A stretch of DNA of 40,304 bases, from IMG/VR virus record IMGVR_UViG_3300047564_001139, positions 1 through 40,304 of that record. One strand, given 5' to 3'. The notes under the pieces are model-generated. The model saw only the letters and a list, made by a program, of their open reading frames with translations. It was not told the origin of the DNA and ran no database searches. Numbering within the stretch: the stretch's first letter is position 1; every line of letters starts with the position of its first letter. Positions 27,886 to 34,539 of this stretch are shown here, one piece after another. The translations under genes were made by a program, and so were the position numbers. The stretch is from a virus.

Positions 27886-27893
27886 TATTTATC
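27886..27893 (-). promoter_or_regulatory. Possible late promoter (GATAAATA)
   Basis: GATAAATA on the minus strand, one mismatch from TATAAATA, 24 nt before the ATG of the 893-residue gene and overlapping the upstream stop codon. The spacing equals that of the better site before the tube gene. Confidence 0.4.
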
Positions 27894-30123
27894 GAGCGCG
27901 TTTCATATTCAGCTCAGTTTTCACCCTATGTGGATTGAATATCATATTGGTAAATGTAACAACTGCACTTTGAGCTTGTTGTATTATGTTTGGTTGTGCT
28001 GGAGCAGAAACTTTATTGACTATAACCTTAGGTGCTGGTTTAGTTGTTGCGGCAGTTACTCTAGTTTGTGTAGATACCATCTTAGGAACTGCTGCTGCTT
28101 TTGGTAGACGAGCATCATAAAACCACCCATGGAAATTGTATCCCTTTCCTCTAGTAATATCCCCTGGCTTCATGTGTGGTTTTTGACTTTCACCCATGAA
28201 ATCAGTTCTTCCTCCAACAAATTTTTGTGCTTCTCTCTGTAGACTTGGATTTGTTATTGATCTTGCAGCCATGTCAACCTTCTGTGCATTTCCTGTAGCA
28301 GCAGCGGCAGATTGTCTATCTTTAATAGCATTCCATTTTGCTGCATTATTAAATGTCGGTTGGTATTGACCAGGGGATGTGATGATTGCAGATATACTTT
28401 TGCCACCAGGATAAGAACCAATTGCCGCACGATTGTATAATGATTGGGCAACATCAGCCTGCCCTTGTGGATTTAAACTATCTTCTTTAGAAGCAAGTGC
28501 TGCTATCTTCCAAAACTCTGCTGATCCTCCAGTCATAAAAGACAGAACATGCTGAGTGTTAGCTCCTCTGGCAATTTCACTCCAACGTTTACCAACCTCG
28601 TCAGGATTTTTGAAAATATTATATCTTCTATTTCTTACTGGATAAACTTGGAAACCATCTTGATTCTCTGCAATCACTTCATCACCGTGTAGAGTAACTG
28701 GAGTTCCCTGAATTAATGCTTTGTATCCAGCATCAGGACCAGACATTAGGTATGGAGTAACTGGTGAGGCTCCGCTTAGTTTTTGATATCCACCTTTTTC
28801 ATATTCGATACCAAAATTTTTGCCAACTCTTCTGACTTCATCATCATAATCTTGAACGGTTATCTTTCCATCGTTGTTGAAATCTAGTCTTGCATTGTCA
28901 GAATATGCACGACCATCAGCAGAAGTAGCAACAACTGCGTTCATTCTTTCAATAGATCCTATTGGTTTACCTTCGACTGCTGACTTATACCAATTCGGAA
29001 CATGCGTGAGACCATAGATATCACCCGCAGTCATACCTTTTTGCAACCCACTTTTGACCCAGTAATTAACTACATATGGCCACTGTTCTGAGCGAGTCAT
29101 TTTTGATAGTTCTTGTGCAGTCTTTCCAGTTCCACCCAATCCTCCACCTGGGCAAAACTGAATAAGACCTACACATCCACCACTATTAAATTTAGAGGGG
29201 TCAATACCACTTTCACTTGCCATCAAAGCTAACAATCCAGGAGCACTGAGTTGCCATTCTTCAGCAAATGCATTAACTAATGCAACAAATTCTGGATCTT
29301 CATCCCACTTAGCAGGAACAAATCCAGGTGGTCTATTTGGATCAGACGCATCTGCATCCCTATCAATATATTTTTCAACAAAAATTGGGTCGTTTAAAAA
29401 CTTTCCCCACGTTTTACCAAAATGTCTTTGTTGTTTTTTGAGATCTAGTGTTGCTGCTTTAACAGGTGATCCCAAAAGAGAATTAAGTAAATTACCACCA
29501 ACCCCAAGTGCAGATACAAATGGTTTAACGATACTATTTAAATACGGAGCAAAGAATGCACCTAATGCACCTGTTCCTTTTATAAACTCACCTAGAGTTG
29601 TTAGTGCAGAAATACCAGATGCTCGTAAAGATACAACTAGAGTATCTGCATACGCAGCATTAACAGATGTATCTTTCATTGCCGAGTCATAACCAACTGG
29701 AGGTGCTATTCCACCAGCCGCTAGTTTTTTTGGAGGTTTTTTCGACGATGCCTTTGGTTTGACTGTGCTAGGTTTTCCTTGTTGTGGAGTATTCTGTTGT
29801 TTCTTCTGTGATTGTTCTACCTTTAATTCTTCTTCCGTCTTCTTCGGAAACTGATCTAATTTACTATTGATCTTAGAATACACCAAAGACTCCAGCAAAG
29901 CATTCTTAGAAAACATTGCAGATAACTTTGCTACTCTATTAGCAATATCATTTTCTTTTTCTGCTTGCTCAATTAATAGATCTACCTGTTCATTTACCTT
30001 GTTAACATTCTCACCACTCTTCGTTGACAATGATCTGAACTGAGACGCCAAAGAACTTTCGAAACTTGATGCTTCCTCCCTAGTTTGCGTTGCTTTTTGT
30101 TGTATAAGATCGTTGAGTAACAT
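27889..30123 (-). CDS. Hub/tape-measure-type protein with two peptidoglycan hydrolase domains (744 aa)
   Basis: 744 residues. The N-terminus (about 1-100) is a coiled-coil-like helix, followed by a Lys/Pro/Gln linker and KKLAAGGIAPP. Residues about 280-370 match soluble lytic transglycosylases: ALMASESGIDPSKF, with the likely catalytic Glu near 303, then GLIQFCPGG. An EF-hand-type loop (DFNNDGKITVQD) sits near residue 418. A tape-measure-like GTPVTLHGDEVI lies near 475. Residues about 540-660 resemble SleB-type cell-wall hydrolases (SKEDSLNPQGQADVAQSLYN, YPGGKSISAIITSPGQYQPT). The domains would open the host cell wall when DNA is injected. The gene starts 1 nt after its upstream neighbour. 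Confidence 0.75.
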   Translation of the reverse strand: MLLNDLIQQKATQTREEASSFESSLASQFRSLSTKSGENVNKVNEQVDLLIEQAEKENDIANRVAKLSAMFSKNALLESLVYSKINSKLDQFPKKTEEELKVEQSQKKQQNTPQQGKPSTVKPKASSKKPPKKLAAGGIAPPVGYDSAMKDTSVNAAYADTLVVSLRASGISALTTLGEFIKGTGALGAFFAPYLNSIVKPFVSALGVGGNLLNSLLGSPVKAATLDLKKQQRHFGKTWGKFLNDPIFVEKYIDRDADASDPNRPPGFVPAKWDEDPEFVALVNAFAEEWQLSAPGLLALMASESGIDPSKFNSGGCVGLIQFCPGGGLGGTGKTAQELSKMTRSEQWPYVVNYWVKSGLQKGMTAGDIYGLTHVPNWYKSAVEGKPIGSIERMNAVVATSADGRAYSDNARLDFNNDGKITVQDYDDEVRRVGKNFGIEYEKGGYQKLSGASPVTPYLMSGPDAGYKALIQGTPVTLHGDEVIAENQDGFQVYPVRNRRYNIFKNPDEVGKRWSEIARGANTQHVLSFMTGGSAEFWKIAALASKEDSLNPQGQADVAQSLYNRAAIGSYPGGKSISAIITSPGQYQPTFNNAAKWNAIKDRQSAAAATGNAQKVDMAARSITNPSLQREAQKFVGGRTDFMGESQKPHMKPGDITRGKGYNFHGWFYDARLPKAAAVPKMVSTQTRVTAATTKPAPKVIVNKVSAPAQPNIIQQAQSAVVTFTNMIFNPHRVKTELNMKRAR

Positions 30124-30124
30124 A

Positions 30125-32986
30125 TTACATGCGCCTCATTTGAGTAGTGTTGAGAACAGTGTTTGTTGGTATATCTATATTCACAAACTGTGGTTTTGAT
30201 GATGATTGGGAAGAAGGTGATGTAGAGGGAGCAGTAGGTATTTCTATGGTGGTAGATTTAACTGCTGGTTTAGATGCTTCTGGTGTTACCCATCCCTGTG
30301 ATCTAGCATAGTCTAAAGTGCCAGGTGCGGTCGCTTCTGGGAATATCATGTCTCCAACTACAGGAGCATTCAACACACCAATTGCTTTACCAAACAATTT
30401 ACCTAATCCAATACCAACATTTTGAGCAGTGCCAGTAAGCAACTGCATACGAAGTTTGTTTGCCAAAGGGCTGTTTGCATATGCACCCTTGAGAAGTTTA
30501 TCAGCAAGTAGTTTACCCTTATCAAATGTTGCTGGTGGAACTACAGATTGGGGTTCAATAAAATTTATTCCTTTTGCTCTTCCAGGAACAATACTTTTTA
30601 CTATACCACCGCCAGGTTTTACATACCTACTAGCACCAGAAGCAGTAGGAGCAGAATATGCACCATGACCTAACACTGGAGTAGATCCTTTACCAATTAA
30701 AGATGCTTTATTTGGGTTTCTAAATTTAGCACCCTTCATAATAGCTTCAAATCCTTCCTTTGCCATGCCAGTGAACCCAGCCTGAACACCTTTAATGCTA
30801 AGACCTTTTGGTTTTGTAAATTTAGATACTAAATTTGCCAATGGTTTTAACCATCCGCCAGACTGAAGAGAAACTTCATCACCTATTGCACCCTTGTCAT
30901 TTAGTTTATATAACTTATTTCCTAGGCGAACTATCTTTCCTTTATCATACTCAGTATACCTATCTAATTCATACTCGGGATAGTCTTCTAATCTTTTCTT
31001 TGGAGTTGCTGATGAAGTAGTTTTATTTTGATGTGTCCAAGCAACAGGATCTATTCTTTGACCCCAACTACTTGTTCTAACTTCCCAGTGTAAGTGAACT
31101 CCTTCAGAACGACCAGTCGTTCCTGTTGTTCCAATTACTTGACCTGCAGAAACTTTTGCTCCAGGTCTCATGCTATCTGCTACATCTTTCAAGTGACCAT
31201 AGAATAGAAATGCTTTTGGATTCTCATGCTGAATCTCAACATAATTTCCATATCCACCACCACCATCAGCAGGCCAATTTCTATTAACGTCAGATACCTT
31301 ACCTGCGAATGGAGATATTACTTTTAGGTTAGCATATCCAGCTGGTGCTAGATCTATACCAGTGTGTTCTTTGCCCCATCTTCTTCCAAACCCAGAGATA
31401 TAATAAATCTTCCCAGCATCAGACTTAGAATAAGGAATCCATGCAGGTGCTTGAGTGACATTCGTGCCACCCATGCCTGCTAAACCTTTTCCTCCTTCAC
31501 CAATTAATAATACATCACCAGCAAGTTCAACTTCTTTGGGTTTCCTACCTCTAATGCCTATGCTTCCAAGAAAGCGCAGACCATTTTTGATCATGTAGTC
31601 TTTCCAAGAATCATAAAATGATGTCAATTCTTTTGTGTTTGATGAGAATCCAGCATAGTTGGATCCACCCAACATGCTTATAACTTCACCTTTAGATATT
31701 CCTAGAATAGATGATAGAACAGGAACAAGACCAGGAATATTTTGATTGAAATAACCAGATAACGGACCAAGTGAACGGAGAGTATTTCCAAATATAGATG
31801 CAGCAGCACCAAGTAAAGCACTTCTAGTCTTCCCTAATACTTCTCCTAAAGATTGCTGATACTTTTGTGAATCATATTGACCTAGTGCCTTTTCACCGTA
31901 ATTTCTGTTCAGTGGAACAACTGCAGTTCCAGGTGCTAATTGACCCTGAACAGGATTATCATATATGCCAGGTGGAATTATCTTTCCTCTTCCTGTTCCG
32001 CCAACTGATACACCACCAGAAGCAAGTTTCTTTTTTGTTTGTGGTTTGTTATCCCACAGATTCCACCATGGTTTATCTTGCTGTTGTTGTTTGGTAGTTC
32101 CTGATGTCTTTACAGGTTCTTGTTTTCTCTGGAAAGGAGAAGTTATTTTAGCAACAAATCTTTTTCTTGCTTCTCTTTTTCTTTCCTCAGTCTCGAAATC
32201 ATCAAGTGCTTCCTGATAATTCTCACTCATCTGACCGAGTAAGAATTCTACATCACCAAGATCCTCGTCTATTCTTCTTAGCTGACCTAAGCTTCTAGTA
32301 AGAACAGAATTTTGTTTTGATAATTCGTTGCCAATAGCATCCAATGCATCGCCATATTTTGCCATCGCTCTGGAAACGTTGGATGGCATCTGACGAGGTG
32401 CAACCAGATCCTCATCCCTGAGAGGCGCTGGCTTTGGTTTGCGTGCCTCAGGGGGGATAGGAGCAGGCGCTGCTGGAGCAGGAGGGGGTTCCAGAACAAC
32501 AGGTGCTGCAGGGGCGGGAGCAGGTGTCTCGGGGGGTTTGATCTGCTCGCGTTCTTTTTTCTTTCTTTCTCTCTCTTCCTGTTCTTCTCTTGCTCTCTTT
32601 CTCTGTTCTTGTATTTCTTGTAGTCTTCTTTCTTGTTCAGCCTCTTCAATTTTTTTATTTACATCTTCACGAAAAGGATTCTCAAGATATGCTTCTACTA
32701 ACCACCTTTGATATTTCTCTTGCCTCTCCATCCATTGAATAGGAGTGCCACTCTCTTGATCCAAAGAAGGATATCCACGAGGATCCTTCTTCATATTTGC
32801 AATCAATCTGTCAGCATCTGCGTCAGATAGATTTACATATGAAGTATAGCTCTCGTCTCCCTGTCTTCTACCAGTTAATTTCGATTTTAAAACTAACCAC
32901 AACCTAGAGTTAGGATTAATCCTACTCCAGGGTATCTTAGGATGTAATACACCTTCTGGTGGTTGTGGTAAGTTGTCGTAGTTCAT
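30125..32986 (-). CDS. Hub/tape-measure-type protein with M23 peptidase domain (953 aa)
   Basis: 953 residues. Residues about 110-160 are a highly charged coiled coil, and 160-200 a Pro/Ala-rich linker. KKKLASGGVSVGG occurs near 325. Residues about 535-650 are an M23 metallopeptidase domain with the zinc site intact: EHTGIDL (His and Asp), then YGH and HLHWEV. M23 enzymes cut peptide crosslinks in peptidoglycan. The rest is helical and low complexity, ending NTTQMRRM. Its ATG overlaps the stop of the 54-codon ORF by ATGA, so it is coupled to the gp26 region. Position after a chaperone-like frameshift pair is where tape-measure genes usually lie. Confidence 0.75.
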   Translation of the reverse strand: MNYDNLPQPPEGVLHPKIPWSRINPNSRLWLVLKSKLTGRRQGDESYTSYVNLSDADADRLIANMKKDPRGYPSLDQESGTPIQWMERQEKYQRWLVEAYLENPFREDVNKKIEEAEQERRLQEIQEQRKRAREEQEERERKKKEREQIKPPETPAPAPAAPVVLEPPPAPAAPAPIPPEARKPKPAPLRDEDLVAPRQMPSNVSRAMAKYGDALDAIGNELSKQNSVLTRSLGQLRRIDEDLGDVEFLLGQMSENYQEALDDFETEERKREARKRFVAKITSPFQRKQEPVKTSGTTKQQQQDKPWWNLWDNKPQTKKKLASGGVSVGGTGRGKIIPPGIYDNPVQGQLAPGTAVVPLNRNYGEKALGQYDSQKYQQSLGEVLGKTRSALLGAAASIFGNTLRSLGPLSGYFNQNIPGLVPVLSSILGISKGEVISMLGGSNYAGFSSNTKELTSFYDSWKDYMIKNGLRFLGSIGIRGRKPKEVELAGDVLLIGEGGKGLAGMGGTNVTQAPAWIPYSKSDAGKIYYISGFGRRWGKEHTGIDLAPAGYANLKVISPFAGKVSDVNRNWPADGGGGYGNYVEIQHENPKAFLFYGHLKDVADSMRPGAKVSAGQVIGTTGTTGRSEGVHLHWEVRTSSWGQRIDPVAWTHQNKTTSSATPKKRLEDYPEYELDRYTEYDKGKIVRLGNKLYKLNDKGAIGDEVSLQSGGWLKPLANLVSKFTKPKGLSIKGVQAGFTGMAKEGFEAIMKGAKFRNPNKASLIGKGSTPVLGHGAYSAPTASGASRYVKPGGGIVKSIVPGRAKGINFIEPQSVVPPATFDKGKLLADKLLKGAYANSPLANKLRMQLLTGTAQNVGIGLGKLFGKAIGVLNAPVVGDMIFPEATAPGTLDYARSQGWVTPEASKPAVKSTTIEIPTAPSTSPSSQSSSKPQFVNIDIPTNTVLNTTQMRRM

Positions 32987-33147
32987 CGATTCTTACTGTT
33001 CTGTTCTTCTATGTAAGCATTCAACATAGTGATATAAACAGTTCTCTCCCATGGGAGCATGTTGTCAAGTTCAGTCAAACTAAACTTATGTATATACATG
33101 AGATTAAAGTTAGACTGATAATAATTTGCCATGTTCTCATGGAACAT
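32983..33147 (-). CDS. Short -1-frame ORF after gp26, probable frameshift extension
   Basis: 54 codons: MFHENMANYYQSNFNLMYIH, then FSLTELDNMLPWER and VYITMLNAYIEEQ. The PWER..Y...L helix pattern resembles the second product of tail-assembly chaperone pairs in other phages; that likeness is from memory. The frame is -1 relative to gp26 and stays open back through the gp26 stop to an AAATTTT site at 33159-33165, so it can be read as a C-terminal extension of gp26 (about 294 residues in total). Both candidate ATGs (33145-33147 and 33130-33132) lie inside a hairpin and lack a good ribosome site, which speaks against free initiation. In T4 the small hub-assembly protein gp51 is a possible counterpart. 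Confidence 0.7.
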   Translation of the reverse strand: MFHENMANYYQSNFNLMYIHKFSLTELDNMLPWERTVYITMLNAYIEEQNSKNR

Positions 33148-33165
33148 GCTCACCCGAAAAAATTT
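33130..33165 (-). promoter_or_regulatory. Predicted programmed -1 frameshift signal
   Basis: On the coding strand the codons GTA AAT TTT TTC contain A-AAT-TTT (33159-33165) in the phase needed for simultaneous -1 slippage. Ten nt downstream CATGTTC (33142-33148) and GAACATG (33130-33136) form a perfect 7-bp stem with a 5-nt loop. The gp26 stop TGA (33150-33152) lies between the slip site and the hairpin. Confidence 0.7.
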
Positions 33166-33866
33166 ACCAGACCCTCAATAGTATATTCAGACTCAACTCC
33201 TGTATTAGGATTAGTAATTTTAAATGTATGTGATAGTCTTGGCATTGTAGCAAAGAAATCTTTTACTTTCTCAAACTGCTTTGATGTCATGCCACCAAGC
33301 CATTCTTCGATCTCTTTCTTTGGAGTTGTCTTTGCTTCAAACACATCTTCACCTGAAAAAATTTGGTGAACTGAGTCTACAATAATATCAAAAACCTCTT
33401 CCGCATTCAATGACTTCATCATAATCTGAGTCTGAATAAACTGTTCCATACCAGGATATTTCATGACAATACCAGTGGTATCATCAAGCATAATCTTATT
33501 AGTATGTGCTGGATCTTTCTGAACTTCAACAGTGCTGAGATCTAAAGTGTAATCAACTTCAGTCTCATTGTCATCAGTGCAGGTAATCTTCATCTGCACT
33601 TCTTCTCCCACAGATTTACCGCGAATATTCAGGAATAGATATTCGATATCAAAAGAAGCAAGTTCTTCAATTTTAATTCCTCTTGTCATCACACAAGATT
33701 TCACAATATCTTTAACAGCACTTGTGATTTGCTTCTCATCTTCAGACTCCATAGCCATTAGAAGAATCTTTTCTTCACTGACTAGAAATGGTCTATACTT
33801 AATAGTCTTTCCGTTTGATGGTAATTCCAATTCATAAGTGGGAACTGGTGGTCTTGGTAAAGCCAT
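33150..33866 (-). CDS. gp26: gp26-like baseplate hub / tail assembly protein
   Basis: 238 residues, close to T4 gp26 (208). The N-terminus has the family pattern LPSNGKTIKYRPFLVSEEKI, then LLMAMESEDEKQITSAVKDI and FDIEYLFLNIRGKSVGEE, followed by a strand-rich acidic middle and a helical C-terminal part. T4 gp26 acts in assembly of the central baseplate hub. The last codons contain the predicted -1 slip site. The gene starts 28 nt after the tube-protein stop, and a weak late-promoter-like GCTAAATA lies 26 nt before its ATG. Alternative view: this is the short product of a tail-assembly chaperone pair. Confidence 0.78.
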   Translation of the reverse strand: MALPRPPVPTYELELPSNGKTIKYRPFLVSEEKILLMAMESEDEKQITSAVKDIVKSCVMTRGIKIEELASFDIEYLFLNIRGKSVGEEVQMKITCTDDNETEVDYTLDLSTVEVQKDPAHTNKIMLDDTTGIVMKYPGMEQFIQTQIMMKSLNAEEVFDIIVDSVHQIFSGEDVFEAKTTPKKEIEEWLGGMTSKQFEKVKDFFATMPRLSHTFKITNPNTGVESEYTIEGLVNFFG

Positions 33867-33891: not shown

Positions 33892-33899
33892 TATTTAGC
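33892..33899 (-). promoter_or_regulatory. Weak late-promoter-like box (GCTAAATA)
   Basis: Six of eight bases match TATAAATA, and the distance to the gp26 ATG (26 nt) is close to the 24-nt spacing of the other candidate sites. It overlaps the stop codon of the upstream gene. Weak on sequence alone. Confidence 0.3.
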
Positions 33900-34539
33900 T
33901 GATTGTTGGTAAACGTTGGAATTCAACATCCCAGTTTGCATAATAGAAGTTAGCAGTAACTTTAACTAATTGAGACGATCCATATGATAATGGAATCGAA
34001 TCAATAGAATATACCCAAGCATCATTTAAAGTATATGTTGCTGCAGTCAAACCAATTTCAGATGAACTGTTGCGCTCATGTTTTTTAATAATCATTCTGC
34101 ATTGATATTCATTTGGATAATTTAATCTATAGTTTTTATTTTTACCAGTTCCTTCTACACTATAGATTCTAGCATACCAATCATTCAGAAAGTTGAGTGC
34201 TTGCATCTCGGCATCACACATGAATGATAATTGAATATCATTGTAGATAGTATTTGTTGGATAGTATACTGGGTTTGCACCAGCATATCTATTGACACTT
34301 CCTGTAGATGTTTGAACTCCAGGCAGAGTTGCTTCATCACACATCAAAAGAATTCTATCACCGACTTCATACACAGTATTAGAGGGTGTTCTGTTCAATC
34401 CACCATACTTTCGTATCAGTGGTTCTTGACCAGCAACCGAATTTTCTATAGGACCACCAGAAAAATGCACAGAATAGAGATTGCTTTTCGCCATCCCTCT
34501 CCCATTAGCTATTGCACTTAAATAGGTCTGAATGCCCAT
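33895..34539 (-). CDS. Tail-tube-fold protein (gp19/gp54 family)
   Basis: 214 residues. The sequence has the family pattern of T4 gp19-type tube proteins: a short N-terminal helix (TYLSAIANGRGMAKSNLYSV), GDRILLMCDEATLPG, NTIYNDIQLSFMCDAEMQAL followed by FLNDWYARIYS, and a C-terminal strand pair (YTLNDAWVYSIDSIPLSY, VTANFYYANWDVEFQRLP). T4 gp19 is about 163 residues and gp54 is 320. The location next to hub genes rather than a sheath gene slightly favours the tube-initiator gp54, but the tube monomer cannot be excluded. Its promoter TATAAATA is 24 nt before the ATG, with AAGG as ribosome site. Confidence 0.7.
   Translation of the reverse strand: MGIQTYLSAIANGRGMAKSNLYSVHFSGGPIENSVAGQEPLIRKYGGLNRTPSNTVYEVGDRILLMCDEATLPGVQTSTGSVNRYAGANPVYYPTNTIYNDIQLSFMCDAEMQALNFLNDWYARIYSVEGTGKNKNYRLNYPNEYQCRMIIKKHERNSSSEIGLTAATYTLNDAWVYSIDSIPLSYGSSQLVKVTANFYYANWDVEFQRLPTIS

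Follow-up and report, generated by a model that had tools for sequence, protein, structure and literature searches.

Gene order and reading frames at the locus

The window analysed here is the whole of a 40-kb record of a cyanophage-like virus (40,304 nt, IMG/VR record IMGVR_UViG_3300047564_001139). The tail genes in question are all on its minus strand, in the order tail-tube-like gene, gp26, a small frame in the -1 register and a 953-aa gene with an M23 domain:

33895..34539, minus strand: upstream gene, tail-tube-like protein by domain and family match (Phage_TTP_2)
33150..33866, minus strand: gp26, putative short chaperone (TAC-N) of 238 aa, matching Pfam T4_baseplate PF12322 and PHROG 150
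32983..33155, minus strand: -1 frame past the slip site, the gp51 or TAC-C domain, 57 codons plus stop, by reading frame and PHROG 634
30125..32986, minus strand: gene downstream of gp51, coding for 953 aa including an M23 peptidase domain, in the tape-measure position; putative tape-measure role by position and length

The window gp26 ends with TGA at 33152-33150 and matches PF12322 with 233 bits, against a Pfam gathering threshold of 24.5. The -1 frame has no stop between 33171 and its own TGA at 32985-32983, where the start of the 953-aa gene overlaps the gp51 stop (ATGA). The initial annotation had proposed that this frame passes the gp26 stop, stays open and gives a product of about 294 residues, and the computed translation of a -1 shift agrees, with a gp26-gp51 fusion of 294 residues. 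It had also called the frame hidden, which does not hold. The frame is gp51, with a match to PHROG 634 at 4e-22, and is annotated in many cyanophages. A tblastn search with it found matches in 551 phage records (E up to 0.01), many of them annotated as gp51 or 'baseplate hub assembly catalyst', and many of the matches start upstream of the start codon, inside the overlap with gp26. The frame encodes a C-terminal domain conserved in cyanophages and in phages of seven other named host genera (Vibrio, Rhizobium, Agrobacterium, Acidovorax, Stenotrophomonas, Nitratidesulfovibrio and Pelagibacter).

The position and length of the 953-aa gene suggest a tape-measure role. Its matches to tape-measure families come only through the M23 domain; the upstream neighbour of gp26 is tail-tube-like, and in phiM12 a tape-measure-like gene is annotated at a roughly equivalent place. 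Besides the M23 domain, the protein has an N-terminal part rich in Pro, Ala, Glu and Arg. The minus-strand gene at 27889-30123 encodes a 744-aa protein with weak matches to lysozyme/transglycosylase-like and cell-wall-hydrolase families.

The probable slip site

Two overlapping heptamers lie in the gp26 phase near the end of the gene:

33156..33162, minus strand: slippery heptamer T TTT TTC (U UUU UUC), with T TTT TTN in 78 of 78 clusters
33159..33165, minus strand: A AAT TTT, the heptamer proposed earlier, in phase and not conserved

The second was the slip site of the initial annotation, and it is present as described, in phase and 10 nt from the downstream stem. T TTT TTC (33162-33156), which the initial annotation had not mentioned, overlaps it and places the slip site three bases later, with a spacer of 7 nt. 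The string TTTTTTC itself occurs four times on the minus strand of the window and six times on the plus strand.

Conservation was examined in 78 gp26 clusters with less than 90% identity to one another. All of them carry T TTT TTN, a count that rests on clusters related by descent, in a set selected by gp26 homology together with the presence of FF or FL close to the C-terminus. The heptamer is TTTTTTC in 69 clusters, TTTTTTT in eight and TTTTTTG in one; among clusters below 50% identity it is TTTTTTC in 20 of 26 and TTTTTTT or TTTTTTG in the other six. The Phe-Phe pair is written TTTTTC at 69 of 77 slip sites, versus 2 of 63 FF pairs elsewhere in the same genes. The residue ahead of the heptamer varies (S, N, D, A, T or H), yet its codon invariably ends in T, compared with about 58% for such codons elsewhere in these genes. 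Viral contigs gave 79 readable relatives, and in all of them TTTTTTCG stands directly ahead of the gp26 stop. The bases before this conserved T run change among the same relatives (AAA, AAAG, CAGAG, CAATC, ACTGC), which breaks AAATTTT.

A slip on A AAT TTT is therefore very improbable. The window and its closest relatives have this heptamer in phase, but it is absent from many relatives that keep TTTTTTC (AAAGTTTTTTC, CAGAGTTTTTTC, GCTTTTTTC and others). The conservation that goes well beyond chance is that of T TTT TTC, and A AAT TTT was rejected as the slip site of the family. In the clade of the window, both heptamers could slip, and the same -1 frame would be entered either way.

A second set collected with phiM12 as query, together with the named phages of the seven host genera above, has one of T TTT TTC, T TTT TTT and T TTT TTG, and the stop of the zero frame follows 0 to 8 codons after it. 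In contrast, the T TTT TTN site is missing from all eight T4-type phages examined in which gp51 is a full-length gene of its own. Searches of viral contigs with gp26 of ACP17 and of T4 gave one and six loci, respectively.

A gp26 homologue followed by a conserved domain in the -1 frame, with no U6 run, is also seen in Ackermannviridae, Vibrio phage D492 and Pseudomonas phage Cygsa01. At these loci an NTT TTC pair two codons ahead of the stop is invariant. Among the loci lacking U6, several (e.g. Klebsiella phage KpS110) lack an ATG around the junction, and others have TAATG.

Elements upstream and downstream of the slip site

Two further elements flank the heptamer:

33172..33176, minus strand: SD-like GAGGG, separated by 9 nt from the slip heptamer downstream of it; a probable stimulator of frameshifting by anti-SD pairing and GAG bias
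33130..33148, minus strand: 7-bp hairpin starting 7 nt past the slip site, a local version of a family-wide stem by folding and covariation in relatives

Across the 78 clusters, pairing with the 16S rRNA anti-SD is strongest in windows whose start lies 14-18 nt upstream of the heptamer; compared with 20 rounds of synonymous shuffling, z there is about -7 to -8. In the Glu-Gly motif upstream of the slip, Glu is encoded by GAG in 47 of 59 cases, versus 546 of 1750 (31%) gene-wide (Fisher p=7e-14). Because the clusters share descent, these test values overstate their independence.

Downstream, RNA folding in 40-nt windows was compared with synonymous nulls. It is stronger than these in windows that begin 0 to 20 nt past the slip (mean z -0.8 to -1.3), and the excess nearly vanishes in windows from 30 nt on. 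The perfect 7-bp hairpin reported earlier is present exactly (CATGTTC/GAACATG, 33148-33142/33136-33130, minus strand, 5-nt loop), but the nearest relatives of the window mostly keep only 4-5 of the seven pairs, and this exact hairpin was rejected as a conserved element. Compensatory changes were found instead in lineage-specific stems at the same place, at two pairs of a 12-bp stem in S-PM2-like phages and at two pairs of a 13-bp stem in another group, the covariation being modest in both. The stems differ by lineage, and hairpins are common at this place. A stem at this place downstream of the slip is a trait of the family.

In the E. coli dnaX frameshift cassette, an SD-like element lies upstream of the slip site A AAA AAG and a stem lies downstream. 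The three parts seen here are the same in kind, whereas the heptamer and the gene differ. The SD-like GAGGG and the downstream hairpin fit the stimulators of a bacterial -1 frameshift.

Entry into the -1 frame

An ATG lies within ten -1 codons of the slip in 30 of the 78 clusters, an ATG or GTG in 33, and an ATG, GTG or TTG in 43. Since the first ten -1 codons hold no ATG or GTG in 45 of 78 clusters, the slip is apparently the only way into the frame there; in 35 of 78 no TTG is found either. In clusters with no start codon, the conserved residues past the slip would be reachable only by a shift from gp26.

Reading gp51 as a separate small gene, translated by termination at the gp26 stop and reinitiation at a closely following GTG or ATG and giving no fusion protein, would suit the window itself, where the gp26 stop and the gp51 starts adjoin (GGGTGAGCATG), and it would suit public records, in which gp51 is annotated as its own CDS. 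It would leave unexplained the many clusters with no start codon, the offset between gp26 and the second frame, which is -1 in every locus read, and the conservation of the heptamer at the nucleotide level; moreover, the annotated gp51 starts of S-PM2 and P-SSM2 fall inside the downstream stem. Reinitiation as the sole route is thus quite improbable. Transcriptional slippage, in which mRNAs of altered length would fuse the frames, could draw on the run of six T, or seven in some relatives. A six-T run is short for polymerase slippage, however, and the conserved SD-like and stem elements sit at distances that suit a ribosome; this explanation is scarcely credible. In the clade of the window, the -1 frame has a GTG and an ATG near the gp26 stop, so a restart beside frameshifting is possible there.

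A programmed -1 frameshift at U UUU UUC yielding a gp26-gp51 fusion is the reading that we prefer, with a probability of about 0.93. What the sequences show directly is where the sites lie, how well they are conserved and which frames are open; the slip and its efficiency are inferred. Most ribosomes would read through to the gp26 stop one codon later and produce the 238-residue short chaperone. A minority would slip back one base on the U run near the gp26 end and then read through gp51 to give the 294-residue fusion; the SD-like GAGGG (9 nt upstream) and the stem (7 nt downstream) would probably assist the slip. By analogy with lambda G/GT and P2 E/E+E', the short and long forms may coat the tape-measure protein and recruit tail-tube subunits while the tail assembles.

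A more elaborate joint reading is tentative and rather unlikely: a dnaX-like three-part cassette (SD-like element, U6C and lineage-specific stem) across very divergent T4-related phages, to which the clade of the window may add a restart at the ATG in the hairpin, giving three products.

Comparison with tail assembly chaperones

The AlphaFold model of gp26 has a mean pLDDT of 87. Its top PDB match is the HK97 tail assembly chaperone 2ob9, weak by Foldseek (E 0.77, probability 0.77) and middling by VIA-align (Z 7.8 over 84 residues); the uncharacterised 3fgx gives a VIA-align Z of 8.2. A sequence search among solved structures found no convincing gp26 homologue. The resemblance of the predicted N-terminal fold to the HK97 chaperone is suggestive, and a chaperone function of gp26 and gp51 is likewise proposed by analogy with known systems. 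The core of the initial proposal is supported, namely a -1 shift that fuses gp26 with the frame after it and would serve tail-assembly chaperoning as lambda G/GT does.

The lambda locus runs tail tube, G, T and tape measure, an order that the window would share given its putative tape-measure gene, and has a -1 shift near the G end (PMC5009743). In P2, the -1 shift of E/E+E' occurs at the same kind of site, T TTT TTG, shortly before the short chaperone gene ends, and the tape-measure gene lies downstream. The slip heptamer of lambda is another one, and neither gp26 nor gp51 has detectable sequence similarity to lambda G/T or P2 E/E'.

The proteins of T4 genes 26 and 51 are homologous to those studied here. 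Both match PF12322 (gp26 at 9e-64, gp51 at 4e-52), and T4 gp51 consists of a gp26-like domain plus the same C-terminal domain, covering positions 13-280 of the 282-position PHROG 150. In T4, the short and the long form are therefore products of two paralogues. Unlike the arrangement in the window, these are separate genes on opposite strands, and T4 gp26 has no slip site. In Campylobacter phage CP220, the C-terminal domain is fused in a single 244-aa ORF; in CP21 the same ORF is broken by a frame change near its end, which may be a sequence error or a real shift.

T4 was still excepted from conserved G-T frameshifting in 2016 (PMC5009743). The initial annotation held that the frameshift may be new for T4-like phages, which it probably is not. 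Vladimirov, Gautam & Davidson (Virology 2022) are cited for two points: in T4-like phages, poly-T sequences within TAC-N genes are known as -1 signals (PMC12846349), and some of these phages have one short and one fused long chaperone gene in place of frameshifting (PMC10885494). As cited there, their system has the same short and long chaperones, with poly-T slip sites in the short gene of some phages and two separate genes in others; against that account, what the present analysis adds is the quantification of the stimulatory elements. The probable gp26-gp51 frameshift is a known kind of switch, for which the slip site is corrected and the stimulators are quantified here.

Implications for annotation and evolution

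Public cyanophage records call gp26 a 'baseplate hub subunit' and treat gp51 as an 'assembly catalyst' of its own. The evidence indicates that in these phages the two are halves of one tail assembly chaperone probably made by frameshifting, which would correct hundreds of annotations. If the three-product reading were true, the short form, the fusion and a free gp51 domain would all come from one site. Together with the paralogous genes of T4, the family would be a clear example of gene duplication replacing a recoding signal, or of a recoding signal replacing gene duplication.
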